A stretch of DNA of 64,000 nucleotides from assembly GCF_037975245.1 (NCBI RefSeq), contig NC_092576.1, positions 40,552,111 to 40,616,110 of the forward strand, written 5' to 3'. A program made the position numbers and the translations under genes. This document shows positions 4,888 through 59,204 of this stretch, piece by piece (within the stretch, counting starts at the first letter, position 1; each line of letters opens with the position of its first letter). The notes below the pieces were generated by a model. That model saw nothing but the letters and a program-made list of their open reading frames with translations, did no database searches and had not been told where the DNA came from. Source of the DNA: Apostichopus japonicus. Its lineage: Eukaryota; Echinodermata; Holothuroidea; Aspidochirotida; Stichopodidae.

Positions 4888-7800
4888 GTACGCGTAGTAT
4901 TAACACTCAATTTTTGCCAAGTTTCTTTCTTATATTTCATGTTCACGTGCAGTAGGCTACTGTAGCTGTCCGTATGCTTCATAATATTAGAATGGGTTAT
5001 GCGAATAGAGCAAGAACTCCGTAACTTTACGACCAAAGAGTGGATCTTACATTAACTAGCATAGCTTCATCCACGATTGAAACCAGGCAATTTTTAGTTC
5101 TTAGTTTTAAGCTTCCTTAGGGTTCAATGTTATTGGCATTTGTGATACAAGTTTCATGCGCTAGTGTAATTTTGTGTCATAGTCATAACGTATGCAATAC
5201 AACACATAGGCCTAAAATACGCTGTCTTTCAATTTAAAATGTGCCTTCCGGAACCCAATGATTCACCTGTATTGACATTCTCATAAAAATGATATAGCCT
5301 AAGCTACAGTTAAGTGATAACTGATCTTGTGAACAGAGTCTGAGCTGTACGGTATATTCTGAAGATTGAAACCCAGGCTAATATAAATTATTATAGCCTA
5401 GGCCGGTCTTAGTTAACGTTAGGCTAAGCTCGGTTCAGCCTATGAGAAATATAAGTTGCGAATATGCTGCTTGACAACAGCATTGACAGTCCATAACGTT
5501 TGTTTTGCTAGTACTGGCTTACCATAATCTTTACTCTGTAGGCCAATACCTTTGACTTGGTAGTTTAATCGGCCTGTTTGGAATCGATGTTGCTAAGGCC
5601 TACTTGTATGATCAAACTGTGGGATCAAGTCCATAAGTGGTCGCCTTAGCATTGTTAGGGAACTTACTGTGCCATTGCAAAATAGAGAATACAGAAATCA
5701 AAAGGCAAGTTTATTAGTGTACTTTTGTTAGATCGTAGCAATGCACAAGTAATAACTAATTTTTTATGATTTTGTTCAATAAAATAGAACATTAACAAAT
5801 GTTCAAGCAATTCTTTCTTTGTTAAAATGCACAAGTAATATCTCAATGCTGATGATTTTGTTTAAAAAATATTGAACATAAACTTATGTTAAAGAAATTC
5901 TTTTCTTTGACTTAATTGGACACTGTTTCGTACATACTCAAAAAATATATAATCTTACACCAAAATAATATCATAAAGCATGTTGTATATTGCTGTGTTT
6001 GTGTTAAATTCGTACAAACATGAATTAAATATGTCATTTCTGGTTATTTCATACGAAAATAAAAGAACTTTTGAAAGAATTCAAACTGTGAATGAACTTC
6101 TGACTATCTACTAGGGCTAGGCAAGGTAGCTTTCTTACGGCATTAATAGATCTCTTTACATTTATGAAACTATAGCATTACCCAAAAGATCACTAGATCT
6201 GGATATGCCTTGACCCATATTCTATCGAATGGAATGTGCAGTATATATGTAACACCTGTCTAGGCCTATAAATCAATTTTAGACCTAATGATTTTGTTTT
6301 ACATGCTGGCTTGATTTTCTAAAGAGTAGTTTTACTTTTCATTGTTCAGTGTACCTGAGGGCTGTTGGTGGAGAAGTTGGAGCAACCTCGGCTCTTGCCC
6401 CCAAGATCGGTCCTCTCGGTTTGGTGAGTCACAAACGTTTATGCAAGAAACAGTGTCATAATAATCGGCAGTTATTTTTACAAAGCTCAGGCGACTGCAA
6501 AATGTGGGGGAAACATGCAAGGGCTTATGGAATTACAACTTACACATCGGGTAGCTTCTAGTTCAACATTTCAACTAAAATTTGGAATATTTTCAATTTA
6601 GAAAGTCATTTCCGATGGGAAACCGTAGATTGCTCTTAGATGAAAAACAGACCTTACTATGACCTGGCCGTGTATGTAACCCAGATCCTCCGGATTGCTA
6701 AGCCTCATTGCTACAAATTCCACCGCCTTTACCCACCCGGCCACAGCACCGGTTTATTCCAGTGTTGGACCGCAAAATGCTATGGAAAATTATCAAATTT
6801 GCGTTGACACAAAGATTTATAAGCCTCCGTAACTTACAGATAAACAGTAGTGTTTTATATGAGACAACATTCAAAGACATCAAATCAACTAAACAAAAAT
6901 TGAACACTCAATTCATCTCGGAATATATATTGATTTTTCTCCTTTTAGTAAATTGATACAGAAAGTTTTATCAAAGATAAATTGTCATATTGCTTTTCCT
7001 GCAAAATGTAAGAAATACAACTTTGAGCATCTTTTAGAGAATTTGGGTTTTCATGAAAAATTTTCAGTTATTCAATAATGAATTCCCTTACAGTATCTGT
7101 GATATATCAGCTGTTTTCAATTTTCCTTTTTTTTTTAAGTCAAAATGATTGCAAAATGTTTCAACATAATGCAGTGGTCTAGTGGCTGTTCGCTAAAGAA
7201 ATTAAGTCTGTAAACTATGCTTGAGTTTGTAAGCTTTAAATTATTGTAAGAGGTGATAATGTAGATGTTGAAAGGGGAGGGGATTTGGGAGAACGTTGAT
7301 GGAGTGGTTTTAACATTTTTGGTTAAGTGTAAGCAAGAATGGAGAATATTTGACATCCAAGCAGATTTATGATGACATTGATAGTCTAAAACATTTGCTG
7401 TTTTCTTTTTACTCTGTCCAGTCTCCCAAGAAAGTCGGAGATGACATCGCCAAGGGAACCCAGGACTGGAAGGGTCTCAAGATCACCGTCAAGTTGACCA
7501 TCCAGAACAGGCAGGCCACCGTCAGCGTGGTCCCCAGCGCCTCCTCTCTCATCATCAAGGCACTGAAGGAAGCCCCAAGAGACAGAAAGAAGGTCAAAAA
7601 TAGTAAGCATTGAAACTAGGATTTGTTCCTGTAGGAAGAGGGACAAGGCAATGCGTTTAGGGCAAGTAGAAAACTGCCCTGGGATTAACTCACCTGGGTG
7701 CACCGTGGCAGTTTTTCAGATCTCAAAAGGTCATCGAGGGCAAATATAAAAAAGATTCCAGGCCATGTTTTTTAACCCCTTAATGACAAGAAAAAATAAA

Positions 7801-12906: not shown

Positions 12907-15900
12907 CTGTGAGACGGAAACAGAAAAGTCAAAAATGATCATTCCAGTCGATGAAAATTATAGAAATTGTTTCTTTTAAATGAAGAGTCTTGTTCTTCCA
13001 AAAACACTGTACATATAGAGCAAGTAGGTTGAGGTCAAGGGTCGCATCACAAACATCTCTGCTGGTTATATATAGCTCTCTCTAAATGTCATTAATTTGA
13101 CCTTGAATGTCCAGTAGTATTGACCTTTAATACATAGATCCTGACCTGAAGTTCCTCCAAGCAAATCTACCGAACGACCTAACTTGAGCATGCTGATTAT
13201 CTCAAGTAGTATGGTCACAGGGGTCAAAGTTCATCACTGACCAAGGAGCTGCTGCTTACACACTTAAAGGGTGTGAAGACTCGCACAAAAAGAAATGTCT
13301 AATGCCGGTAATTTGACCTAGTTTCAAATGAGGTGTAACAGAAGTGTTAAACACCACCATCGATCCCAGAAAATACATGCACAGCTTGCTGCCGTCTGTA
13401 ATTAGACACTAGTGTACAGTCAGTACATACAGCTGCGGTCAATACCCACAGCACAGTGTAAAAACGATACAGCGATGGACATCTCAGGTCCAGCTAAAGA
13501 TAACAAGGTATCACGTTTCATTACTGTCTGCATTTTGTAGAGACACAAACAAAACGTCACTTGCAAGCAACAGAAAGTTATCTTTTTCAGATGGCCTCAC
13601 ACAGTTTGGGGCGAGTCTTCAATGCCTTTAACTGACCAATTAACACTAACATGAATGTGCCAGGGATATGCACAGCCTACAAGTGACCCAGAGTTTCCTC
13701 ATGCTCCATATCAAAGCCAGGTCTACATAGCTTGGAGCTGTGCCAATGAAGTACGTCTATGTGTAGCGTATACCCTCCATAGCTTTATGCAATGAGTAGG
13801 TCTGTGTGCAATGGTACAGCTTCCACATTCATTCATACTGAGGTCTTAAAGTGTGACTATTGTAGGTTCATAATTACCCATAGTGACATGGTGCATCATT
13901 CTGATGAGTGACTGGTGTAATTTATTATCAAGAAAAAAAATTCTAAAATTAGCAAAGATTTTTAAGAAAAATTTCTGAGCAAATTTTGTTAAGCAACCAA
14001 GGTCGACCACCAGAAGATCGCTTTATTAAAATTCAAGTAGATACCTACCCCATTACCAACTCAGACGGTACCGGTCGTGGATCAATGATGCAGGCCTTCT
14101 TATGTGAGAGTGCCTCCAACGTGAAGTTGCCATGGTAACTACCCATTCCACTATGACCGACGCCTCCGAAGGGTAATGCAGGCACTGTGTAATAAAGTTA
14201 AGTGTGATCTTGTTGTAGGATGCAAGGCACAATGAAGTTCATGTTAAAATTTACACAGTGGATGGTTCAGAATTTAACAAGGTCACTTTGGCAAATTCAG
14301 GTTTTAGCACTAGGGTTAGTTTAAATCAAAGGAAAAGTGTTTTTAAATACCATACAGGATTTGAGAGGTCTTTTGCTACTTAAGATTTTTTTTTTTTCTT
14401 CAAAGGTCTCCACTTTTCAGTAGGCTACTGATTCTTTCTTCTACTGAAAATTTTGAACCAAAGGATTGGCAACATTGGCCAATTAAGGAAATGTTTTACC
14501 TATGGGATGGCATTTCTTTTTAATTTCAATCAAAATATTTAATTTAACTATGTACATTATCAGTCACCAAGATGTAATTCTGTTTATGGCTTCACATTAA
14601 CTGTTTAAAGTATAAATACGTACATCATTGTTAAAAGTTACACTATTATAGTTAATATATTTATGATGTCACAATATTAATATTCCAACCTCCAGTCAGA
14701 GTTGAGATTTTTCAATCTAATCCAAGTCGCAACTTTACTCTGCAGTAGTAGATCTGTACTCCATTCCCCACCCCCCCCCCAACCCCCCCCTACTGCCTAG
14801 GGTAGAAACCTTGAGATATCCAGCAAAATAATACCTGGTGATTTCAAGAAAAAAATCAAATGAATGGTTATTGTTTTAATAATCTAACAATGCAAACTAC
14901 ACACAACTCCACATAAATCTGCTTCAGTTTGTTAAATTACCAGTTTTTGAATTTTGGAGATTCTACAAAGATATTAAGAGACCATGTATATTGTATATTG
15001 TGATAACATCTCTTACAATGGCCTACCTGTTGCTTGTATTAGTAGTTCATTGAACATCAAACTTCCACTCGATGTCTCCTTCATAAATCTCTCATGCAGT
15101 CTCTTATCACCGGTGAAAACGTACAACGCCAATGGTTTCTCCCTGTAGAGAGGGGAGGGGGGAATAAAAAAAACTTTTGAAACGAAAATTCACGTATTTC
15201 CTACTTTTGTATGTTAACCTTTATGAGTACGACAACCATTTTTGATGAAAGGGGGGTGGGGGGGGGGGAGAGAAGGAACACTGTTCATATTGGGGTACAT
15301 AATGCTAAGAAGTTATAGAATTACAACCCATGGGTGGTGAAGGGTTTATAAAGGCTCCTAATAATAAAATGGTCAAATAAATGTTATTGGTTTAGACAAA
15401 TTGTGTAGTTGAAGAATGGAAAACCTAACTGGTAAATTATAAACAAATTTTAAATAATCCAGGAAGTTGGGACAATTTTCCAATGCTTACACAACACTTT
15501 ACTATCCTCTCATATCATGTTTCAAAGCACTCATACTAGCAGTATAAACAGTTCCTAACCTTTAGCTGATTCTAGTGCTAATACCACTCTATACTGTCCT
15601 CTCATACCATGCTTCAAAGCACTCGTACTGACAGTATGAACAGTTCCTAACCTTCTAATGCTAATACCACTCTATACTGTCCTCCCATATCATGCTTTGC
15701 AGCATTCATACTAGCAGTATAAACAGTTCCTAACCTTGATCTGATTCTAATGCCAATACCACTCTACACTGTCCTCCCATATCGTGCTTCAAAGCACTTG
15801 TACTGACAGTATGAACAGTTCCTAACCTATATCTGATAATTCATACTGACAATATAAGTGACTTGAACTGTCACATGAAGGTACCTAACTGACAACATTT

Positions 15901-18900
15901 TCCCAATTGTTTGTAAGAGCAGAGCAATATTTCACTTGAAAGGGATTTGAAACATCAACCTCAGAGGTCTCCCTTAAAAGCTGTATTCTGGGATGTATCA
16001 AATAAAGTTGGGTTTGATCCTGAGGTACACGGTATGAAAGGTACCAGGGCTTCTGACTGGTATCCCCCTCCCTCCCTTCCCCCCTCCCCCCCCCCCACAC
16101 GATCCACAAAGCTAAGCTATGGCAGTACATGGATCGCAACATCCCAAGAGCTGGCCAAATATTTCTTGCTCAGATTTTCAGGTTTAGACATCCAAAATCT
16201 AACAAGAGTTTATCATACTGACAAGTCAATTAGAAACAAACCTTTTCAAATTAAGAGAAAAACTGTTATTTCCAAGATATAATTTAAATCAATAGTATCA
16301 CATTTAAGGGGACCATCTCAACATATACCTTGTTTGAGCCTGCTTATGCGTTGTATATTTCAATGTTCTTATTACATAGTCAAGCCTACATATGTCATAT
16401 TCTATATATCTAATATATCTTGAGGGATTCAATGCTGAATTCTCAAAGCAAATGTCACCCTTGTGACCTCTGAACCCTCACCCTGAGTTGATCAATTTAA
16501 TGGCTTCGTCTGCGCCTTGGACAGAAACGATCGGCAGTAGAGGACCAAAGATCTGAAACGAAAAGACAGTTTACTTTTGAATCACATCAGATCTTTCTTT
16601 TTTGCAAATGGTATTATTCAAACCATGTAAAACAAGCAACTTCTTAATGCCTTTTTGTCAAATTAATCAAAACTATTCCAACAGAATTAGCTATGCAAAA
16701 TCTGGATCGGAAAATTGATTAATTCAGTGCTTTATAGTTTCGCTACTGATCCAATTTCATTTCCCCAGTGTCATGTGGTAAGAGTAATCAATGACTTAAG
16801 ACAGTTTGAAATAGGTCCTAAGATGCCTAAAATTTCAGGTTCTTAGAATTATTTTTTTGGGGGGGGGTTCTAAATGAGGAAACCTTATATTGGGAGCAGA
16901 GGACTTGAAGTAAGACCAAATAAATGAATTCCATATTTACAGAATCCTGCATTACATATATATATATATTTTTAAATCTCTCATTTTGATTGTATTTACT
17001 TCCATGGATGTAGACATATATATGCATTTACTATAAAAAGATACGATTATCCTAAGATTTCCAAACAAGTGCAAGTTAACATAATCATGAATTATCTGTT
17101 TTGTAATTTTACATCTAGATATTGTGTATAGATATTAATAAATATGTAACTTTGCAGGGGTTCGTACAATCGTTGGAACATGGTTCATGCATGACTAGCG
17201 TTATCATATCATCTCTTTGCTTCCTTGACATGTCATTAATGGTTGTATGAAAATCCCAGTTCGTTACTTATCAAAATTTTCAAATATCTCGCATAAAGTA
17301 CCTCCTCCTTCATGATTTGATCACTAAATGTGATGTCATCAAAGACGGTCGGCTCGATGAACTTTTCCGTCCGATCAGATTTTCCTCCGTGGACGATGTT
17401 CTTTTTCTGACTCTCCATCAGTTTATTAAGTCGGCTGTGAGCGGAAGAGAGATGGCATTAACTATCGATCATAAATTGGTCACGTTATATTCCTTTTGAG
17501 ACGTAGTTCCATTTTCATTTTTTGAAGTACACACGTTATCATATTTAAATCATGTCTATCAGAATTTGCTGCAAAAGTTTAAATAGCATACTAAAAAATT
17601 GCTAGAAGTTTTTAATAATGATGATTCAAAAATTTCATCAGGGTGTTTAAGAATTATTAAAATGCCTGTTGTTGATCAACAACTAAACAAAAAGTATCAG
17701 TACTGTTAGAGAGATAGTAGCATACTGGTTGAAATTCAGCTGGGTGACCATTATCAGACTATCTAGCATATTTGAAGGTAATACTGATGGCCTGAAAGTA
17801 GCTAGATTTATATTCAGCAACAACACTCTGAAATTCTCTCTCCTCACCAAACCACGTTCCCAATGGGGACAATCATTACCAGCTTGTAACTGAATGAAAT
17901 TAACAACTTCTGTTATTGGCCATATAATCATCATTTCTCTGTATGAATGTTGACTATACTTTTCATGAACACACAGTTTGTCCATACACCTCTTGTGTGA
18001 ATGTTAGCCATACTTGTGAGCAAGATAATTCTCATTACATTTCTAAAATATGTGATAACTATAAACAGGGCACAAACAAAGGACAGAGAGAGGCAACTTG
18101 GGGGGGGGCAGAGCAAACCTTTCTTTAGGGCACGTTAGAAATTATCTACGATTTTCATTGGAATGGGAGGGGCTTTCACCCCAGCTTTATCAGCATTCAA
18201 AAGGGCACCACAGGCAATTTTCAAAACCCTGAAAGGGCACGCAATGTATTTTCCCTCAAAGTGGGAATATTTAATGTAAGGAAATGTCAGAAAATGATAA
18301 GGATCCTTGTAAATGTTCATAAGCTACACATCTAGAACTGAATGCTTCCCAAAAGCGATTATTAGCTGCTTTCTGGCGACAAATATCTCTCTGGTAAAAA
18401 TACCCCATGCATTTTGGATGAGCTTTGAGCCCTGCTTGGCTTCTTTATGAGTGCACCTACAGCTAACTTTATAACAAGGCACACAACAGCTTTTGTCATT
18501 TTGTAACATGATTTTGAAGGACATTACATGCCCTGCTGGAGAGGAAGGCAGCTATTACACGTACACCACTGCTCTTTGCTTCAAAGTAGCAATTAATCAA
18601 TTAATCAATCAATCGCCTATTGTTCTCAGTGTCTGTTGAATGTTCCCTTTGGTTTGTTTCATTCATTCACAGTCTCAGTTTGAGCTTTCAGCTTTTATAT
18701 CTAATGTCTTCACATAAACATCCTTGTCTAACTGTCTGGGGAGGAAGGCAGCGATTACACAAACACTGCTGCTATTTGCTTCAACGTATCAATCAATCAA
18801 TCAATCACATATTTTTCTCAGTGTCTGTAGAACAGGGATGGGCAACCTATTTGAATGAATGGGCCAGATATAAGGAGTGAAAAATTGACTGGACCACACC

Positions 18901-21900
18901 TTGCCAACGATTTCAAACCTTTGATTCCGAGGACTTTCAAGCAATAGGTGTGTGTACTTAATCTGTATTCACAAAAACATAATATCAATACAGTACAGTT
19001 GATAATTGATGGGGATAATAGGCCTACCTGACAGCATCATTAGTGCCGATAAATTCTAAGCAGCTAGCTTTTTTTTTGTGATGATGTAAAATAGATTGAT
19101 TTTTTTCTTGAGACATCTCACGGGCCGCATAAAAATCACTGGCCGCGCCGCATGTGGCCCGCGGTTCGTAGGTTGCCCACCCCTGCTGTACAATGTTTCA
19201 CAGATAGATCCTTTATCTAACTCACTCAAAATGTCTTTCGTTAATTATTCTCCCGTAGTCTTCGTGTTCTTTCGGATTTTCCCCATAGAATTGAGTCATA
19301 TATTTCTTCACTTCTTCGATGAACTTTTCCTTCACGTCGGCGTGGCACAGAACGTAATCCGGTGCGATGCACGTCTGACCGCAGTTCATCAGTTTTGCCC
19401 AAGCTACTCTCTTGGCACTCACCCCCACGTTGACCGTGTTGTCCACGTAAACGGGGCTGAAGAATACATGAATTACATAACAGGGGCTAAATTATACGGT
19501 ATAGTATCAGAAAGTTGGTATGCAAAATGAGCGAAATTGCTATGCGAAATGGGCAAATTGCTATGCAAAATGGGCAAACTGCTATCCAAAATGGGGGAAA
19601 TTGCTATGCAAAATGGGCAAATTGCTATGCAAAATGGGCAAATTGCTATGCAAAATGGGGGAAATTGCAATGGAAAATTGGCAGATTGCTATGCAAAATG
19701 CGCAAAATTGCTATGCAAACGGGGCTGAAGAGTACATGAATTACATAACAGGGACTAAATTATATGGTATAGTATCAGAAAGTTGGATTGCTATGCAAAA
19801 TGGGCAAAATGCTATGCAAAATGGGCAAATTGCTGTGCAAAATGGGCAAATTGCTATGCAAAATGGGCAAATTGCTATGCAAAATGAGGGATTGCTATGC
19901 CAAATGGGCAAATTGCTACACAAGGGCATAGATGTATGTATAGGAGTGTACACAGGAAACATGGTATTTAGTAAAGGAACGTTCACCGACTTCAAAGTTG
20001 CTTTTTGAAAAATTTAAGCATGATCTGAAAAGGCCATTCAATTTATTTTGTGTAATGAGATTTAGAAATGAAATTTTCAAGAGAACCCTGTTAGTGACCT
20101 ACGGAACTAGTTTATTGTTTATTCCTGTCAAATGATGCATGAATTTACTTTGCTTCATTCCAACTAAGAAATCTGTCAAATATTTAAATTCAATTGGAAT
20201 ATTTTCATTTCACACCCCCCCCCCCCCCTTGATTTTTAACTCATTTCCAAACACTTACCTTTTTCCTCCGAGTTCTAACGTGACTGGAGTCAGGTGTTCT
20301 GCGGCTGCACGCAGGACAATCTTGGCAACGTGTTGGCTGCCGGTGTATAGGATGTGATCAAACCTCTGTTTGAGGAGTGTTTGGGCCACCTCGGCACCGC
20401 CGTTAACGATGCGATAACAATCCTAGATAGAATGAGAGAGAAGAAAAACCAAAAACATTTTAAGGTCATGGATGAAGGGAAAACATTATACAACTCATGA
20501 GAGCACATGGGTTTATTTCACCAGAATTTTTTACTTTTAAGATTGCTTGATGGACTTTAAAATCATATTACCTCATCAAGATATTTTGGGAGGATTCTTT
20601 CCAGCAACTCAGCGGTGGCTAACGCAAGCTCGGAGGGCTTAATGATTGCTGCATTACCTGTAAGAAGAAACCAATAAAATAGATGTTTATTGTCGCTAAA
20701 GAGAAGGCAGTATACAGAATCTCTCAAAACAAGATTCGGGGTTTGTCAAAGCCACCTGGTGCCCAATGCACAAACCCATTTGCAATGAGTGAAGATTAAT
20801 GAGTGGAGTTACTAAAGGAATATTTCGTTGGCATACGATGTGAGACTAATATTGATGAGAGAAATATTACAAACACTTATATAGTTGAACACCCTCCATC
20901 TCAATGTCTTCTCTCAAGCCACTTTTTTATTCAATCTGTTTTGACTAGCTTAAAACTTCCACAGTTATTCCAAGAAGTTCCTCACAGTAGGTGGTCTGTG
21001 TTATCAACATGGCATATATGTTATTCAGAAGCTATAGCTTGGCTATGATAACCACTTTGTTGATTTATCTGCAAAGCTTCATACATGATTTGTAAGTTTT
21101 GCTTAGCAGTCAATTTCCTCGGTAGTTAGTATGCCATCAGAATGCAACTTTTTTTGTAGAAATTTTATTTTCCACTGTGAATAAACGATGGAAATGTTAT
21201 CAAACAATTACCCTGACTTCATCATTTACTCTCCATATTGCTTGATGCACACGAGAAAATATCACTGAATTGGGATTCTAAGTCCAGTGAGGGATAAGTG
21301 AGTTGTCTTGCTACTAAATCATTTTGTACATATATAATGTTTGGTTTGCTTTGTTACACCTACCTGTAGCAATAACTCCCACTAACACCATAAGGGTAAG
21401 CTGTATGGGGTAATTCCTTTCTTACACCAACCTGTAGCAATAGCTCCCACTAGCACCATAAGGGTAAGCTGTATGGGGTACAGCTTACACCAACCTTACA
21501 CCTACCTGTAGCAATAGATCCCACTAACACCATAAGGGTAAGCTGTATGGGGTACAGCTTACACCAACCTTACACCAAACTGTAGCAATAGCACCCACTA
21601 ACACCATAAGGGTAAGCTGTATAGGGTAATTCATTTAATACACCTACCTGTAGCAATAGCGCCCACTAACACCATAAGGGTAAGCGGTATAGGGTAATTC
21701 ATTTGATACACCTACCTGTAGCAATAGCTCCCACTAACACCATAAGGGTTTACAAGCTGTATGGGGTAATTCCTTTGTTACACCAACCTGTAGCAATAGC
21801 CCCACTAACACCATAAGGGTAAGCTGTATGGGATAATTCCTTTGTTACACCTACCTGTAGCAATAGCTCCCACTAACACCATAAGGGTAAGCATTATGGG

Positions 21901-24900
21901 GTAATTCCAAGCACCAATGATCAAACACAACCCGTAAGGATCTCGGTGAATATACGCCTCTCTGCCAAAGAGAATTAACGAGCCATCGTGTACCTGAAAA
22001 AAAAATCAAGTTTTAGAAAAGTTTAAGAAATTACTACTAACTAAAGATCAAATTTTGTTTCTCAACCCAATGGCTCTAACATGTTTCAAGAAATAAAAAA
22101 ATAAAAAAAAAATAATAATAAGTAAATAAAACTGTTAGCAAACTGCTTATCCACTAGAGAGCCTGTGTAAGAGAATGTGTAAAAGTAAGTTGGCCTGACG
22201 TTTAGATCCTAGCAGGATCTTCTTCAAAGGCTAAATGACAAGTAACAGTAACAGAAGGGACAAAAACATGCACAGAATACAGACAGGTTATTGAGCACGG
22301 TGAACACAAAGAGATAGATGTAAGGGGATTAGTAGACAAGGGATGGAGAGAAGAAAGAAACCAACAGGGGAAGAGGAGAGGTAGGAGATAAACAGTGGAG
22401 GGACAAAGAGAGGATAAGAAAATCAGAACTAAGTTGGCTGGGTGATGGCCAGATCCATCCATGGTCCTCTAGGGGAGTGATTATAGATTCCAACATGCAT
22501 ATACATGCATATGCATGCCAACATGCATATATGCACGTTGGCATGCATACATGCATGCCCCTATGTATATGCATGCCTGCTGTTGGTGGTGGCTATGGTC
22601 AGGTCAATTTGAGGCATACAAACACACAAGGAGGTATTATATATTTGTACATACTGCCCTGTGTATGTTAGGAAACATAACAGAGATAACTGCTAAATGA
22701 GTTTGCTGTTTTGTGGAGTGTTTTTAGTGTAGTAATGATGTAGTATTATTTCAATATAACATCAGTGTAATATAACATCAGTGTGATATCACTGAAGTAC
22801 CAGTGTAGTGTAGTGGCAGTGTAGTATCACTGTAGTACCAGTGGAGTGTAGTGTCAGTGTAGTGTCAGTGTAGTGTCACTGTAGTACCAGTGGAGTGTAG
22901 TGTCAGTGTAGTGTCAGTGGAGTGTTGTGTCAGTGTAGTGTTGTGTCAGTGTAGTGTCAGTGGAGTGTAGTGTCAGTGTAGTGTCAGTGTAGTATCAGTG
23001 TAGTGTCAGTTTAGTGTAGTGGCAGTGTAGGATCAGTGTAGTGTAGTACCAGTGTAGGGTAGTGTCAGTGTAGGATCAGTGTAGTGTCAGTGTAGTACTA
23101 GTTTAACAAGAGCCCAAGGGCACTGTGGTTCCTTGCTTGGGGTATATGACAATACACATAATATTATCAAGCAAGATTGGGCTCAAATAGTCAAAGTAAT
23201 TGTGGTCCTACATGTTCCCATAAAGTAACCAACACTATAGTCAACACTTTTGTGATCACAAAATGTGATCAGATTTTTTATCAAAAGGCACTTTTGAGAT
23301 CTAAATATGGCGTCGAAAATGTAAGAAATATAAGAGATCTACAAGCGTGTCAACAGATATGATAACATTGGTGACCTCAGATGACATGACCTTTAAGTTT
23401 CAAAATGTTCCACCACCCCATTCACAACTTGTCCCAAAATATCAACCATGTCACATCTTGGCATTGAGATTTAATTGCATTAAATGTCAAAAAATTAACT
23501 TTGAACTTGTATACATAACTTCACACACAAAGGTCACCCGGAGGTCAACCAATGGACATTTTTGATCGGTGAGACCTAAATATAGCATGACTGTAAAAAT
23601 TCAAACATTTTTTCTTTGCCCATTTTCTCCCCCCAAAATACTACTTTTTTAACATTAGCTGACCTTTGGTGACGTTGGATCACATGACCATTAGGTTTGT
23701 AAATATTCCCCTTACCATTTGCAACTTGTCCAAAAAAATCAACCTTGTCACACCTTGGCACTGGGAGTTATTGCTTTAAATGTCTGAAAATTAACTTGAC
23801 CTCATATAACTTCGCACACGAAGGTCACACGGGGGTCAACCCATTGACATTTATGATCAGAAGGTACCTTTAACATCTGAAAATAGCATCGAAACTGTAA
23901 AATTCCACAAAACACGAAAAGGTCACCAGAGGTAAAATTGAGGTCAGGGGTCACCCAGATGCGGGTCGACAAATGGATTACATTGAAGCAACTCCCAACC
24001 CTAACGGACAATTTGTTCTCAAGTAATCGCAAAAATACTACTTTTTTAATCATTAATTGACCTTTGGTGACCTTGTATCACATGACCGTAACGTTGGAAA
24101 ATATTCCCCTATACCATTTGCAACTACTCCAAAAATATCAACCTTGTCACACCTTGGAACTGGGAGTTATTGCATTAAATGTCTGAAAATTAACTTTGAC
24201 CTCATATAACTTCGCACATGAAGGTCACACGGGGGTCCACCCATTGACATTTATGATCAGAAGGTACCTTTAACATCTGAAAATAGCATCGAAACTGTAA
24301 AATACCACAAAACACGAAAAGGTCACCAGAGGTCAAATTGAGGTCAAGGATCACCCAGATGCGGGTCGACAATTGGATTACATTGAAGCAACTCCCAACC
24401 CTAACGGACAATTTGTTCTCAAGTTATCGCAAAAATACTAGTTTTTTTTATCATAAATTGACCTTTGGTGACCTTGTATCACATGACCGTTAAGTTTGAA
24501 AATATTCCTCTATACCATTTGCAACTACTCCAAAAATATCAACCTTGTCACACCTTGGAACTGGGAGTTATTGCATTAAATGTCTGAAAATTAACTTTGA
24601 CCCCATATAACTTTGCACATAAAGGTCACACGGGGTCAACCTGATGACATTTATGAGCAGAAGGTACCTTTGACATCTGAAAATAGCATCAAAACTGTAA
24701 AAATCCCCAAAAACATGTTAAGGTCACCAGAGGTCAAATTGAGGTCAAGGGTCATCCAGATGCGGGTCAACAATTGGATAACATTGAAGCAACTCCCAAC
24801 CCTAACGGACATTTCGTTCTCAAGTTATCGCAAAAATACTAGTTTTTTATCATTAATTGACCTTTGGTTATCTCGGATCACATGACCGTTAAGTTTGAAA

Positions 24901-27665
24901 ATGCTCCCCTAACCAGTTCACAACTTGTCCTAAAATATCAATCTTGTCGCACATTGGCACTGGGAGTTATTGCAGTTTTAATATTTTCGGTTTTTGGACC
25001 ATAACTGACCTTTAGTGACCTTTGTGGGCACCAGAAACAATAGGGCACACCTTCTCCATATGGCGGATCTAAAGTCCAAGTTTGGCCTCAATCCAACATT
25101 CCCTTATTGAGATAGAGCGTACCCAAGCAAGTGTCACAGACACACACACACACACATACACACACACATACACACATACACACACACATACGCCAACCTG
25201 ACTGCATAGGTTCCTTTTGCTAAAGCAAGGAACCAATAATAATAATAATAATTAAACAGTTCTTATTAAGCGCCTGTAACAGAAGTCTCAGGGCGCTTTA
25301 CAAATATAAAAGTCATAAAATACAAAAAGAATACAAGACAAACACACAGCAAAAGAAGCAAATGACCGCTGACCAGACAAGGAACATGCAACGAAAGAGC
25401 AAACCAATAAGAAAACCAGTATAATAACTGTGAAGTGTAAGTGACATATCAGTATATTGTCAATATAACATCAGTGATATATCAATGAAGTATCATTGTT
25501 GTATCACTGTAGTGTCAGTGTATTACCAGTGTAGTGTCAGTTTAGTGTCACTGTAGTGTCAGGGTAATATCAATGTAGTGTCAATGTAGTATCAATGTAG
25601 TGTCAGTGTAATATCACTGTAGTACTAGTGTAGAACCACTGAAGTGTCAGTGTAGTGTCACTGTAGTGTCAATGTAGCATCACTGTAGTACCAGTGTAGT
25701 TACCACTGTAGTACCAGTGTAGTACCACTGTAGTGTCAGTGTAGTATCACTGTAGTACCAGTACAGTATCAACGTAGTATCATTTCAGTGAAGTATCGAT
25801 AACACAATATATGTAGTAGCAATATCAAAAAACCTAAACAATAAATGAATGAAAAGCAAGAAAATTACAGAAGTTTTGCTCCATATACTTACATTTTGAG
25901 GGTCAACAACTTTATCTATTTCTGAAAGAAAATGAACTGCTTCATTAACCACCTCATCAATTTCACCATTCTGTGTTTCTTGGGGAGACTAGAGGATAGG
26001 AGAAAATGAAAAGTGAAAATAGGTCAGTTTAAATAGCATTCCATAAATCAATTAATCAAGAAAGCATTCAACCAGACGATTTTCAACGCTATGTTTGCCA
26101 TGCATTGTGCCACGTCACGCTAACATAGCTAGACATACTAGGCAAAGTATTTGTGTTATAGTGGCGATGTCATGATGTTTGGTAAGGCAAGAAAACTAGG
26201 TCGTGTAGAGATTCTTGCCAGAACAGATAGGGATACCGCTTTACAATGACACAAGCAATAACAAATAACCTTCATTAATTTGTGAAAAGAACGCTTCTGG
26301 AGTCTAAACTTTACCCCAAAATCTTATAAATACATCGTAAGTAATAAAAAATACATAGTAAGTTTAAAATTAGATAGTAAGTTTTTAAAATACATAGTAA
26401 GTAAAAAATACATAGTAAGTAAAAAATACACGTTTAGTAAGTAAAAATACAGAGTAAGTAAAAAATACACGTATAGTAAGTAAAAATACATAGTAAGTAA
26501 AATAATTAGTAAGTGAAAAGTACATAGTAAGTAAAAAAATACATGTATAGTAAGTAAAAAAAAACATAGTAACCAACAAATAGTAAGAAACCAACAAATA
26601 GTAAGAAAATAATATACATGTAAGTAAAATGAAAAACTTTTATCTCCACTCTTGATCTCTTGACCTAAACTAAATGTACTTGTACTAAACAAATTGAAAA
26701 TTATTCTTTCATGTATACATATCTATCTAGGTCCCATTACACAACTTGGTATGACAAATATTGTGGACAGTAGATCATAACTTCATCACGTCTCATTGCC
26801 TAGATCAAGAATAAACTTAATTATCATAATAAAAACAGCTATAATAATATAAATATAATCATAATAAAAAATAATAATAATAAAATATAATTATAATATA
26901 TATAGATAATATAAACAGCTTTTTTTCATGATGATAAAATGCTCGAGGCATTTTGATGCTCAGGCATTACATACCTTACGTAGGTCCTTGAACACTGCAT
27001 CAAGATTTAAAAAATACATAGTAGTAAGTTTTAAAAGTACATAGTAAGTAAAAATATATAGTAAGTCATATAAAATACATAGTAAGTTAAAACTACACAC
27101 CTTACGTAGGTCCTTGTACACTGCATCATAGATATCCTCTTGATGATCTTTAATCAGTCTCAGTACCGCCTTTAAATTCTTCACCCTGGAGGCTTTTGAC
27201 CTGGTCTTCCCTGCGTTGAAGCTAGCACGCAACTGCTCCACGATCTGACATTTGCAAACGAATGGAAAGATATATACTTTGGTTATGAACTCAAAATATG
27301 TAGATTTTTCCTTTGCCATTATAGACTACAACCGAGGCAACTTAGATCGGATCTCAAAAAAACCAGCGAAAACAGACAGCTAACAACTCACTGATTTCTC
27401 ACACATTTTCAGCAAATAACATTCTGAACTGTAAGCTGGTCAAGTGGTGATGATTATTTGACCTCAACTGACCTTTGACATCCACCAAAATCAGTAGGGA
27501 CCTTATTACTGCTCGAGTAATATTTTACTATATATATGTGTTCATATAAACTTATATACAGATCGGCTGTCAAGATCCCTTAATCTGTACAACAGAAACA
27601 GTTTTTCTTTTCAGTCGAGTCGAGCTTACCTTCTTTATTTGCTCTTCTGATGAAGCTGACGCCAT
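12753..27665 (-). CDS. ALDH3: ALDH3-family aldehyde dehydrogenase, gene A (12 exons, complete)
   Basis: Twelve coding exons on the minus strand (27665 down to 12753) join without a frame break into 501 residues. The family is NAD(P)-dependent class 3 aldehyde dehydrogenase, oxidising fatty or aromatic aldehydes to acids. Visible marks: IIGAWNYP with Asn122; the cofactor region KPSEL; LYTG; LELGGK with general base Glu217; [11 protein letters not shown] with nucleophile Cys251; MKEE/IFGP with Glu343; [24 protein letters not shown]. The last exon ends in about 20 hydrophobic residues ([20 protein letters not shown]), like the tail anchor of ALDH3A2 (fatty aldehyde dehydrogenase), so attachment to the ER or a related membrane is likely. 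All introns are GT-AG and all phases agree. Exon lengths 1-11 are identical to those of gene B. Substrate is not shown by sequence. Several introns carry large tandem arrays next to exons. Confidence 0.95.
14049..14184 (-). CDS. ALDH3: ALDH3 gene A exon 11
   Basis: Encodes [20 protein letters not shown] through SELVM (residues 407-450), the conserved FGGVG/SGMG/YHG block near the active-site tunnel. Acceptor ACACAG, donor GTAGGT. Confidence 0.95.
15027..15142 (-). CDS. ALDH3: ALDH3 gene A exon 10
   Basis: Encodes [19 protein letters not shown] and [18 protein letters not shown] (residues 368-405). Acceptor CTCTACAG, donor GTAGGC. Confidence 0.95.
15468..15908. mobile_element. MITE of the CAGTTGGGACAAT family with internal tandem expansion
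   Basis: Begins GTTGGGACAATTTTCC and ends near TTTTCCCAATTG, like the element at 10265. The inside holds about four units of roughly 85-90 bp, each with CCACTCTA..CTGTCCTC, CATGCTTCAAAGCACT and ACAGTTCCTAACCT. It lies in intron 9 of gene A. Confidence 0.6.
16482..16552 (-). CDS. ALDH3: ALDH3 gene A exon 9
   Basis: Encodes [20 protein letters not shown] and INS (residues 344-366) plus two bases. The preceding exon supplies the EE of the EEIFGP motif. Confidence 0.95.
17302..17434 (-). CDS. ALDH3: ALDH3 gene A exon 8
   Basis: Encodes residues 300-343, including [21 protein letters not shown] and IMKEE with Glu343, which positions the nicotinamide ribose in ALDH structures. Acceptor GCTCACAG, donor GTACTT. 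Confidence 0.95.
18540..18832. repeat. Tandem duplication of about 190 bp in gene A intron 7
   Basis: Two copies share GGAGAGGAAGGCAG (second: GGGGAGGAAGGCAG), GATTACACRHACACY, TTTGCTTCAA, an (AATC)n run and TCTCAGTGTCTGT. The second copy ends where a MITE is inserted at 18833. Confidence 0.7.
18833..19185. mobile_element. hAT-type MITE with 8-bp target-site duplication
   Basis: Ends are CAGGGATGGGCAACC and GGTTGCCCACCCCTG, an inverted pair typical of hAT/Charlie-like non-autonomous elements. Flanks are CTGTAGAA (18825-18832) and CTGTACAA (19186-19193), an 8-bp duplication with one mismatch, as expected for hAT. The 353-bp body has no transposase. It sits 40 bp downstream (in gene sense) of gene A exon 7. 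Confidence 0.8.
19226..19456 (-). CDS. ALDH3: ALDH3 gene A exon 7 (catalytic cysteine)
   Basis: Encodes residues 223-298, including [17 protein letters not shown]; the second Cys (251) is the catalytic nucleophile. Also [20 protein letters not shown], a strong ALDH3 block. Acceptor TTCTTCAG, donor GTGAGT. Confidence 0.96.
19518..19922. repeat. 21-bp minisatellite in gene A intron 6
   Basis: About sixteen imperfect units of TTGCTATGCAAAATGGGC plus three bases. The period is a multiple of three and units contain few stops, so several frames stay open and mimic a repetitive protein on the + strand. The array is split by a second copy of the exon 7 acceptor region (19719-19785). Confidence 0.9.
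19719..19785 (-). repeat. Duplicate of the exon 7 splice-acceptor region
   Basis: Repeats the sequence at 19451-19515 with few changes, including the last intron bases and the first bases of exon 7 (AAACGGGGCTGAAGA on the + strand). It therefore carries a second copy of the CTTCAG acceptor about 270 bp upstream of the true one in gene sense. Confidence 0.85.
20259..20422 (-). CDS. ALDH3: ALDH3 gene A exon 6
   Basis: Encodes residues 168-221: [29 protein letters not shown] and [10 protein letters not shown]. Glu217 is the general base. Acceptor ATCTAG, donor GTAAGT. Confidence 0.95.
20572..20657 (-). CDS. ALDH3: ALDH3 gene A exon 5
   Basis: Encodes residues 140-167, [20 protein letters not shown] then [13 protein letters not shown] binds the cofactor. 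Acceptor TTCTTACAG, donor GTAATA. Confidence 0.95.
21363..21854 (-). repeat. Tandem array of seven exon-4-end/splice-donor fragments
   Basis: Seven extra copies (period about 66-76 bp) of the last ~55 bases of gene A exon 4 plus the first ~14 bases of intron 4 directly follow the true exon end. On the minus strand each unit reads roughly [17 protein letters not shown] and then a splice donor. Four units keep GTAGGT (starting near 21363, 21502, 21645, 21714), two have GTTGGT (near 21429, 21785) and one (near 21579) has lost the donor. None has a splice acceptor of its own. Confidence 0.9.
21855..21993 (-). CDS. ALDH3: ALDH3 gene A exon 4
   Basis: Encodes residues 93-138, with [20 protein letters not shown] (Asn122 of the oxyanion hole) and [14 protein letters not shown]. 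Acceptor poly-T CAG, donor GTAGGT. I chose this end because its length (139 bp) equals gene B exon 4 and because only this copy has a full exon before it. Confidence 0.95.
22494..22576. repeat. ATGCATGC-rich simple repeat
   Basis: Alternating purine-pyrimidine words (CATGCATATACATGCATATG and similar) run through this stretch in gene A intron 3. Such sequence can form left-handed or cruciform DNA; that is inference. Confidence 0.7.
22740..23104. repeat. CAGTGTAGTGT minisatellite, left block
   Basis: Dozens of near-copies of a 10-11 bp unit (CAGTGTAGTGT, CAGTGTAGTAT, CAGTGGAGTGT). A second block of the same family lies at 25440-25790, so the two enclose the AGGTCA-rich array. Confidence 0.9.
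23105..25230. mobile_element. About 400-bp-period array with inverted ends, rich in AGGTCA half-sites
   Basis: Four to five units, the last three spaced by about 400 bp, share GCGGGTCRACAA.TGGAT, GACATTTATGATCAGAAGG and CTCCCAACCCTAACGGAC. The stretch begins with GGTTCCTTGCTT (about 23129) and ends with AAGCAAGGAACC (about 25222), so it looks like one mobile unit with inverted ends and internal tandem copies. Three units contain clusters of AGGTCA. No transposase frame is seen. Class unknown. Confidence 0.6.
25138..25191. repeat. (CA)n microsatellite
   Basis: ACACAC repeats interrupted by CATA, within gene A intron 3. Confidence 0.95.
25234..25300. repeat. AATAAT run with GCGCCTG/CAGGGCGC fragment
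   Basis: An (AATA/AAT)n run precedes TATTAAGCGCCTGTAACAG and CTCAGGGCGCTTTACA, a short motif pair that I associate with dispersed repeats of marine invertebrate genomes. The association is from general knowledge, not from a search. Confidence 0.35.
25440..25795. repeat. CAGTGTAGTAT/CACTGTAGTACC minisatellite, right block
   Basis: Degenerate 10-11 bp units of the same family as 22740-23104, including CACTGTAGTACCAGTGTAG. It ends about 100 bp from gene A exon 3. Confidence 0.85.
25893..25988 (-). CDS. ALDH3: ALDH3 gene A exon 3
   Basis: Encodes residues 61-92, [20 protein letters not shown] then [12 protein letters not shown]. Phase 0 at both ends, 96 bp as in gene B. Acceptor CCTCTAG, donor GTAAGT. 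The segment is the variable helical region after DLRK. Confidence 0.93.
26325..26620. repeat. 17-18 bp minisatellite AAATACATAGTAAGTAA
   Basis: About seventeen degenerate units. Every unit contains GTAAGT on the + strand. A shorter block of the same repeat lies at 27005-27095, abutting the exon 2 donor of gene A. Confidence 0.9.
26983..27005 (-). repeat. Duplicate of the 3' end of gene A exon 2
   Basis: The minus strand reads DAVFKDLRK and then GTATGT, almost repeating the true exon end DAVYKDLRK plus donor at 27101-27129. Minisatellite units separate the two copies. No acceptor of good quality precedes it, so I do not call it an exon. Confidence 0.8.
27101..27244 (-). CDS. ALDH3: ALDH3 gene A exon 2
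   Basis: Encodes residues 13-60, [20 protein letters not shown] through [16 protein letters not shown] and the DLRK end match the ALDH3 N-terminal helix. Acceptor TGTCAG, donor GTGTGT (weaker than average). Confidence 0.94.
27630..27665 (-). CDS. ALDH3: ALDH3 gene A exon 1
   Basis: Encodes [12 protein letters not shown], then GTAAGC. ACCATGG gives a good Kozak context. The 36-bp length and phase equal exon 1 of genes B and C. Confidence 0.92.

Positions 27666-39784: not shown

Positions 39785-59204
<19,420 letters not shown>

Follow-up and report, generated by a model that had tools for sequence, protein, structure and literature searches.

The window analysed here, a 64,000-nt stretch of the Apostichopus japonicus genome (contig NC_092576.1, positions 40,552,111 to 40,616,110 of the forward strand), contains on its minus strand an ALDH3 gene, gene B, in which the end of exon 4 and its splice donor are repeated in a tandem array inside the following intron. 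The model of this gene from exon E2 to exon E11 has GT-AG ends at all nine introns and matches the Aldedh family with E=4.5e-88, and the PDB matches of exon 4 are class 3 ALDHs and their relatives (best 9.1e-10). The introns flanking exon 4 are 3,899 and 1,197 nt long. In window coordinates, and with a caret marking the splice boundary, the features concerned are:

14045..27244, minus strand: ALDH3 gene B, exons E2-E11 (first exon unplaced), a 439-codon open frame before the stop
21993-21855, minus strand: exon 4 of gene B, 139 nt, acceptor tttttttttcag, donor ACAG^GTAGGT, frame joining exon 5
20658..21854, minus strand: intron 4 of gene B, 1,197 nt, at a phase-1 position common to three paralogs without the array
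21854-21364, minus strand: tandem array of seven units within intron 4, each unit made of intron start plus exon tail with the donor position last
21854-21788, minus strand: unit 1, 67 nt, donor GTTGGT
21787-21716, minus strand: unit 2, 72 nt, donor GTAGGT
21715-21648, minus strand: unit 3, 68 nt, donor GTAGGT
21647-21580, minus strand: unit 4, 68 nt, TTTGGT (broken donor)
21579-21506, minus strand: unit 5, 74 nt, donor GTAGGT
21505-21432, minus strand: unit 6, 74 nt, donor GTTGGT
21431-21364, minus strand: unit 7, 68 nt, donor GTAGGT

Each unit joins ~50 nt of the exon 4 tail to at least ~15 nt from the intron side, and the junction reads ACAG^GT in six of the seven repeats, as it does at exon 4 itself. 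The initial annotation had described seven extra copies of the exon 4 end after the true exon, six of them with a GT donor (four GTAGGT and two GTTGGT); both counts hold for the seven minus-strand units of 67-74 nt, the remaining donor site reading TTTGGT. The array has a Tandem Repeats Finder score of 766, whereas 30 first-order Markov shuffles of the window reached 84 at best, and a genome search with the array unit returned at least eight matches (match counts for the unit being lower bounds), all of them inside the window at 21349-21908, that is, in the array or in exon 4. The units differ from one another by 2-12% in their core, indels excluded, and by indels in addition. Variants common to units 3 and 4 and to units 5 and 6, at a few sites and read without a tree, suggest that neighbouring units may have arisen by local copying. 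Units 5 and 6 share an opening block with an additional donor-like AAGGTTGGT. Core positions 38-40 (AGC after GTGGG) are changed in five of the seven repeats, differently each time, the remaining core being nearly constant. Rfam at gathering scores gave no matches in the window.

Gene B has three ALDH3 paralogs, gene A inside the window and genes C and D on the same contig:

41131..47079 (end approximate), minus strand: paralog ALDH3 gene A, exons 4-11, with exons 2-3 further upstream and exon 4 without an array

The phase-1 position of intron 4 is identical in A, B, C and D, and exon 4 of A, C and D has no array; because these paralogs share the intron position and lack the array, we conclude that the array was added to a pre-existing intron. 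At window 21892-21894 the exon 4 codon is ATG, a doublet change from the CAG that is kept in six of the seven repeats (the seventh has CCG, and none has ATG) and in two of the three paralogs (A, C and D reading CAA, CAG and CAG, respectively). Since the repeats are mostly CAG and the paralogs CAA or CAG, the repeats hold the older codon, and the exon was altered after the first copying. Pro to Val and Ala to Thr differences from the paralogs are common to exon 4 and the repeats, and these changes are therefore older. The sequence thus shows how the repeats are built and that the copying began before this one codon change.

A known class of structures fits this anatomy. Minisatellites across exon/intron boundaries, termed mirages, have been described in amphioxus in Adh3, BflGb6 and BflGb9 (PMC3087553). 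The ALDH3 array resembles them in a number of respects: firstly, it consists of minisatellite-like tandem copies whose units hold exon and intron sequence across the boundary; secondly, it lies beside the authentic boundary, with the 439-codon frame intact; thirdly, many but not all of its units (six of seven) keep the AG/GT, and its unit length agrees with the 10-160 bp given for the amphioxus mirages, which likewise lie at a 5' or 3' boundary with AG/GT kept in many units (PMC3087553). It differs from them in its host, here an echinoderm and not a cephalochordate (the host being where mirages were described and not a structural feature), in the three boundary duplications found in one gene (ALDH3 gene B), and in that a single intron of the present genome, in a KRI1-like gene described below, has as many as 27 strict donors. 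Concerted evolution, with inner units most alike, and length polymorphism or somatic instability are also reckoned among the traits of mirages.

We regard it as likely, with good confidence, that the ALDH3 array is a mirage, a 68-nt boundary unit that expanded on the intron side and is removed whole with intron 4 by way of exon definition. The 68-nt unit would have arisen by a tandem duplication that fused approximately 53 nt from the end of exon 4 with ~15 nt from the start of intron 4, and slippage or unequal exchange would then have multiplied it on the intron side until seven further copies stood there, with the exon body left intact. Given the length of the two flanking introns, the spliceosome would be expected to define exon 4 across its 139 nt and to pick the donor nearest the upstream acceptor, and the array would be excised along with intron 4. 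How the unit expanded and how the transcript is spliced we infer from published work on structures of this kind, by which the array is probably spliced out whole and would most likely be a passenger that the gene tolerates rather than a switch.

The strength of the repeated splice sites bears on this outcome. With a donor matrix made from 32 donors of the four ALDH3 genes, the exon-4 donor left out, the true exon-4 donor scores 9.17 and so do four of the repeats (above 88% of the 32 family donors), while the two GTTGGT sites score 5.95 and the broken TTTGGT site -0.40. Intron 4 has four donors that equal or exceed its own within 500 nt downstream, as compared to 0-3 in the other 31 introns, where some of those counted are the next exon's donors. 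By these scores the competing ladder of donors that had been proposed for the pre-mRNA would indeed be on offer. The related claim, that downstream donors lead into a TAG, was borne out for every copy: all seven extra donors lead into one and the same TAG, which falls at residue 143 in the E2-E11 model and upstream of later exon junctions, as in a poison extension.

These properties speak for a regulatory ladder, in which the extra donors would be used at a meaningful rate, the premature stop would lead to destruction of the mRNA, and copy number would set ALDH3 output. We consider it unlikely. The amphioxus mirages appear silent, RT-PCR data reported for Adh3 and globin suggesting no interference with regular splicing (PMC3087553), and paralogs A, C and D do without an array. 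In minigenes with identical competing donors and 365-nt flanking introns, moreover, the upstream donor was exclusively used, as exon definition would have it (PMC9225289), and the introns here are 3,899 and 1,197 nt. Those minigenes share with ALDH3 identical tandem donors after one acceptor and long flanking introns; they are engineered two-donor constructs in cells, whereas the ALDH3 array is natural and has seven extra copies. The extra donors are strong enough to leak, but the evidence leans against a tuning of output by nonsense-mediated decay.

Several points count against a mirage that is simply removed with its intron. In the human survey reported alongside the minigenes, ~60% of events favoured the downstream donor where strength was unmatched, and this donor formed the majority in every intron class, while at near-equal strength the upstream donor won only 60%; the intron-proximal donor won in the work of Reed and Maniatis, as cited there (PMC9225289). 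As the human survey is less one-sided than the minigenes, some leakage from the extra donors is possible. Predicted folding and accessibility leave the true donor undistinguished: counted from the least open, it takes 12th place among 32, and the repeats are not less open in any consistent way, so local RNA folding was rejected as what sets donor choice. The array copy number comes from one assembly. Finally, B-only differences occur at 91 aligned residues, as compared to 22 for A and 25 for C. This excess may reflect merely that B is the older branch and that A and C, 80% identical, are the nearer pair; relaxed constraint on gene B would also be compatible with it. In favour of the mirage reading, the gene is intact, and across the 359 residues of exons 4-11 its identity to A and C is 60-61%, with nonsynonymous divergence (dN) of 0.28-0.30 and saturated synonymous divergence (dS), as would fit long purifying selection on gene B.

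The repeat units also end in acceptor-like sequence, and tandem duplications across splice boundaries are known to have given new introns. In a potato RdRp gene, a tandem duplication across an intron-exon boundary produced a new spliced intron, as seen by RNA-seq (PMC4974935). The same paper summarises Rogers' AGGT duplication model and the 24-bp AGGT arrays of fission yeast, and internal tandem repeats at human exon-intron boundaries are reported to form novel introns (PMC2812944). Each of these has a likeness to the ALDH3 array: the potato duplication crosses a splice boundary, the repeated units of Rogers' model and fission yeast carry AG^GT, and the human repeats are minisatellites at exon-intron boundaries with possible effects on splicing. 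The potato case lies on the acceptor side and gave a new spliced intron, whereas the ALDH3 array lies on the donor side and has seven copies (PMC4974935); in Rogers' model and fission yeast, exonic units became introns, whereas here the intron pre-existed and the acceptor signals are mostly poor (PMC4974935); and the human repeats are variable, lie in segmental duplications and have transcript support for their novel introns (PMC2812944).

By analogy, the ALDH3 units might act as zero-length exons, that is, as recursive splice sites, or as 67-74 nt introns of the kind in Rogers' model. ACAG^GT in six of the seven repeats and at exon 4, together with the documented gain of introns by such duplications (PMC4974935), would favour this, as would the acceptor-like end of unit 1, whose score of 2.9 is in the low range of real acceptors (above 12% of 34). 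The other six repeats have acceptor-like ends with scores of -5.2 to -2.9, and even the weakest of the 34 real acceptors (minimum 0.9, median 8.6) lies above these, which argues against functional recursive sites, and the intron is not absent from relatives but holds a position common to A, B, C and D, which argues against intron gain by AGGT duplication. Because the acceptors are mostly poor and the intron is old, we reject recursive splicing and new introns as the principal account and hold them to be very unlikely, the case being less clear for unit 1.

Two other boundaries of gene B are duplicated:

26969..27002, minus strand: repeat of the exon-2 end with its donor (AAG^GTATGT), in frame and open, the true donor at 27101 lying 126 nt upstream
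19717..19786, minus strand: repeat of the intron 6 end with its acceptor and 8 nt of exon 7, 67/70 identical, the true acceptor lying 268 nt downstream

The exon-2 donor copy scores 9.38 (authentic donor, 7.84) and, if used, could add 42 residues to the protein. The exon-7 acceptor copy scores 9.30 (authentic acceptor, 9.19), and its use would meet stops. Repeats rich in ACTTACTATGTATTTTT (the complement holds GTAAGT) lie beside the duplicated exon-2 donor at window 26328-26627 and 27006-27097 (minus strand), and a 21-nt array (TTTGCATAGCAATTTGCCCA on the minus strand) at window 19515-19918 is interleaved with the duplicated intron 6 end and acceptor. A search of exons against their own genes, covering 35 exons in all, found no such duplication in 10 exons each of A and C; in gene D, represented by five exons, the exon-7 acceptor region is preceded by a 31-nt copy (90%) that lies 854 nt upstream of it (L010 reversed, 5996-6026).

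Arrays of this kind extend beyond ALDH3 gene B, and the view of the exon 4 array as a single oddity did not survive: similar arrays occur in the same gene and elsewhere in the genome. As a control we examined 13 Aldedh exon matches (13 of 132 candidates scored) and 19 ABC exon matches (19 of 195) with 2 kb on each side; some of these matches are related genes, and their boundaries are the ends of profile matches, not annotated exons. A long donor-repeating array starting from the exon end was present in 2 of the 32, which are two related ALDH genes ~1 Mb apart:

L014 2227-3243: exon-end donor array of a related ALDH gene, starting ACAAA^GTAGGTG, copies diverged
L015 about 2025-960, minus strand: exon-end donor array of a related ALDH gene, starting ACAAA^GTAGGTG, copies diverged

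Their units include only ~7 nt of exon, taking the exon end as read. A genome scan for three strong donors 30-60 nt apart returned 397 matches, as compared to 195 for the reversed pattern, these figures being matches and not independent arrays. Some 100 places among the matches listed were grouped by eye into 17 arrays, with upstream flanks and array starts read for all 17 and frames for 11. Two of the 17 lie at exon ends by Pfam, in a Saf4/Yju2 match (2.8e-12) and a Kri1_C match (5.6e-28). At four more (L044, L046, L047 and L048), as we read them, an open frame stands behind an AG acceptor and the array starts inside the frame, although none of the four fragments matched Pfam; the remaining 11, in five of which frames were read, are without exon-end support.

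C2:28048941-28050344 (L049, L060): KRI1-like gene, 27 strict donors (MAGGTRAGT) 53-54 nt apart in a 1,778-nt intron

The exons flanking the KRI1 intron join in frame, and the extension from each of its first three extra donors reads into a TAA at once. Kri1_C was found at one place in the genome, and that such a gene carries 27 strong donors is a further argument against the regulatory ladder. The presence of the same structure in other genes also bears on whether the ALDH3 array, or its copy number, is an assembly artefact. In the amphioxus draft, the assembly of one mirage appears to be aberrant (PMC3087553), a precedent for such errors; given these other genes and the divergence among the ALDH3 units (2-12% in the core, and indels), we attach very little weight to an artefact and think it the least probable account.

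How often such arrays should meet a boundary by chance can be estimated. Arrays of period 20-150 number 56 in 216 kb from 35 sources, and random placement predicts ~1.1 crossings with at least 8 nt on each side at a nominal 132 exon boundaries. Exon 4 is the one qualifying case; the L014 and L015 arrays just miss the 8-nt rule. With one crossing seen against ~1.1 expected, a duplication process aimed at splice sites was rejected, and there is no sign that boundary arrays are strongly purged, the numbers being small in both respects. The corresponding acceptor-array pattern (1,837 matches, as compared to 1,138 reversed) was uninformative because the rows listed are dominated by one dispersed repeat, TTTTCAGTCCGAAAATAAAATACACG, which occurs at many places on C1-C3, often as inverted pairs.

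A few observations were made elsewhere in the assembly. Contig 35 is mitochondrial, and within the first 200 residues of its COX1, seven of eight AAA codons align with Asn of solved COX1 chains, from which AAA would read as Asn there; its gene order by Pfam is COX1, ND4L, COX2. This code and this order are echinoderm traits, and the mitochondrial DNA points to an echinoderm host. Several COX1-like pieces besides the full gene on contig 35 lie at C29:14745-31219 and are either nuclear copies or a second mitochondrial contig. A search of the genome for the GFP family, taken as a lancelet marker, gave no match, nor did the control genomes of the same search, and ARAGORN found no tRNAs on L061.

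Together, these data appear to extend mirages from the lancelets to an echinoderm, as judged from a literature search that was not aimed at echinoderms. Boundary minisatellites might even be common genome-wide in echinoderms, where they would set rival donors side by side in naturally graded numbers (from 1 to 26 extra copies were seen). In some genes, changes in copy number might leak into unproductive splicing and so act as a heritable dial of expression or give rise to new introns, and ALDH3 gene B, in which three splice boundaries are duplicated, would be one of these; we offer this broader scenario as speculation and think it improbable as a whole. The ALDH3 array is a natural counterpart of the duplicated-donor experiments on splice-site choice, and the KRI1 array, at its one locus, suggests that cells may be able to pass over dozens of good donors as long as the right one lies upstream of them. 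The ALDH3 array also preserves an earlier version of its exon, and hence orders one codon change in the history of the protein.

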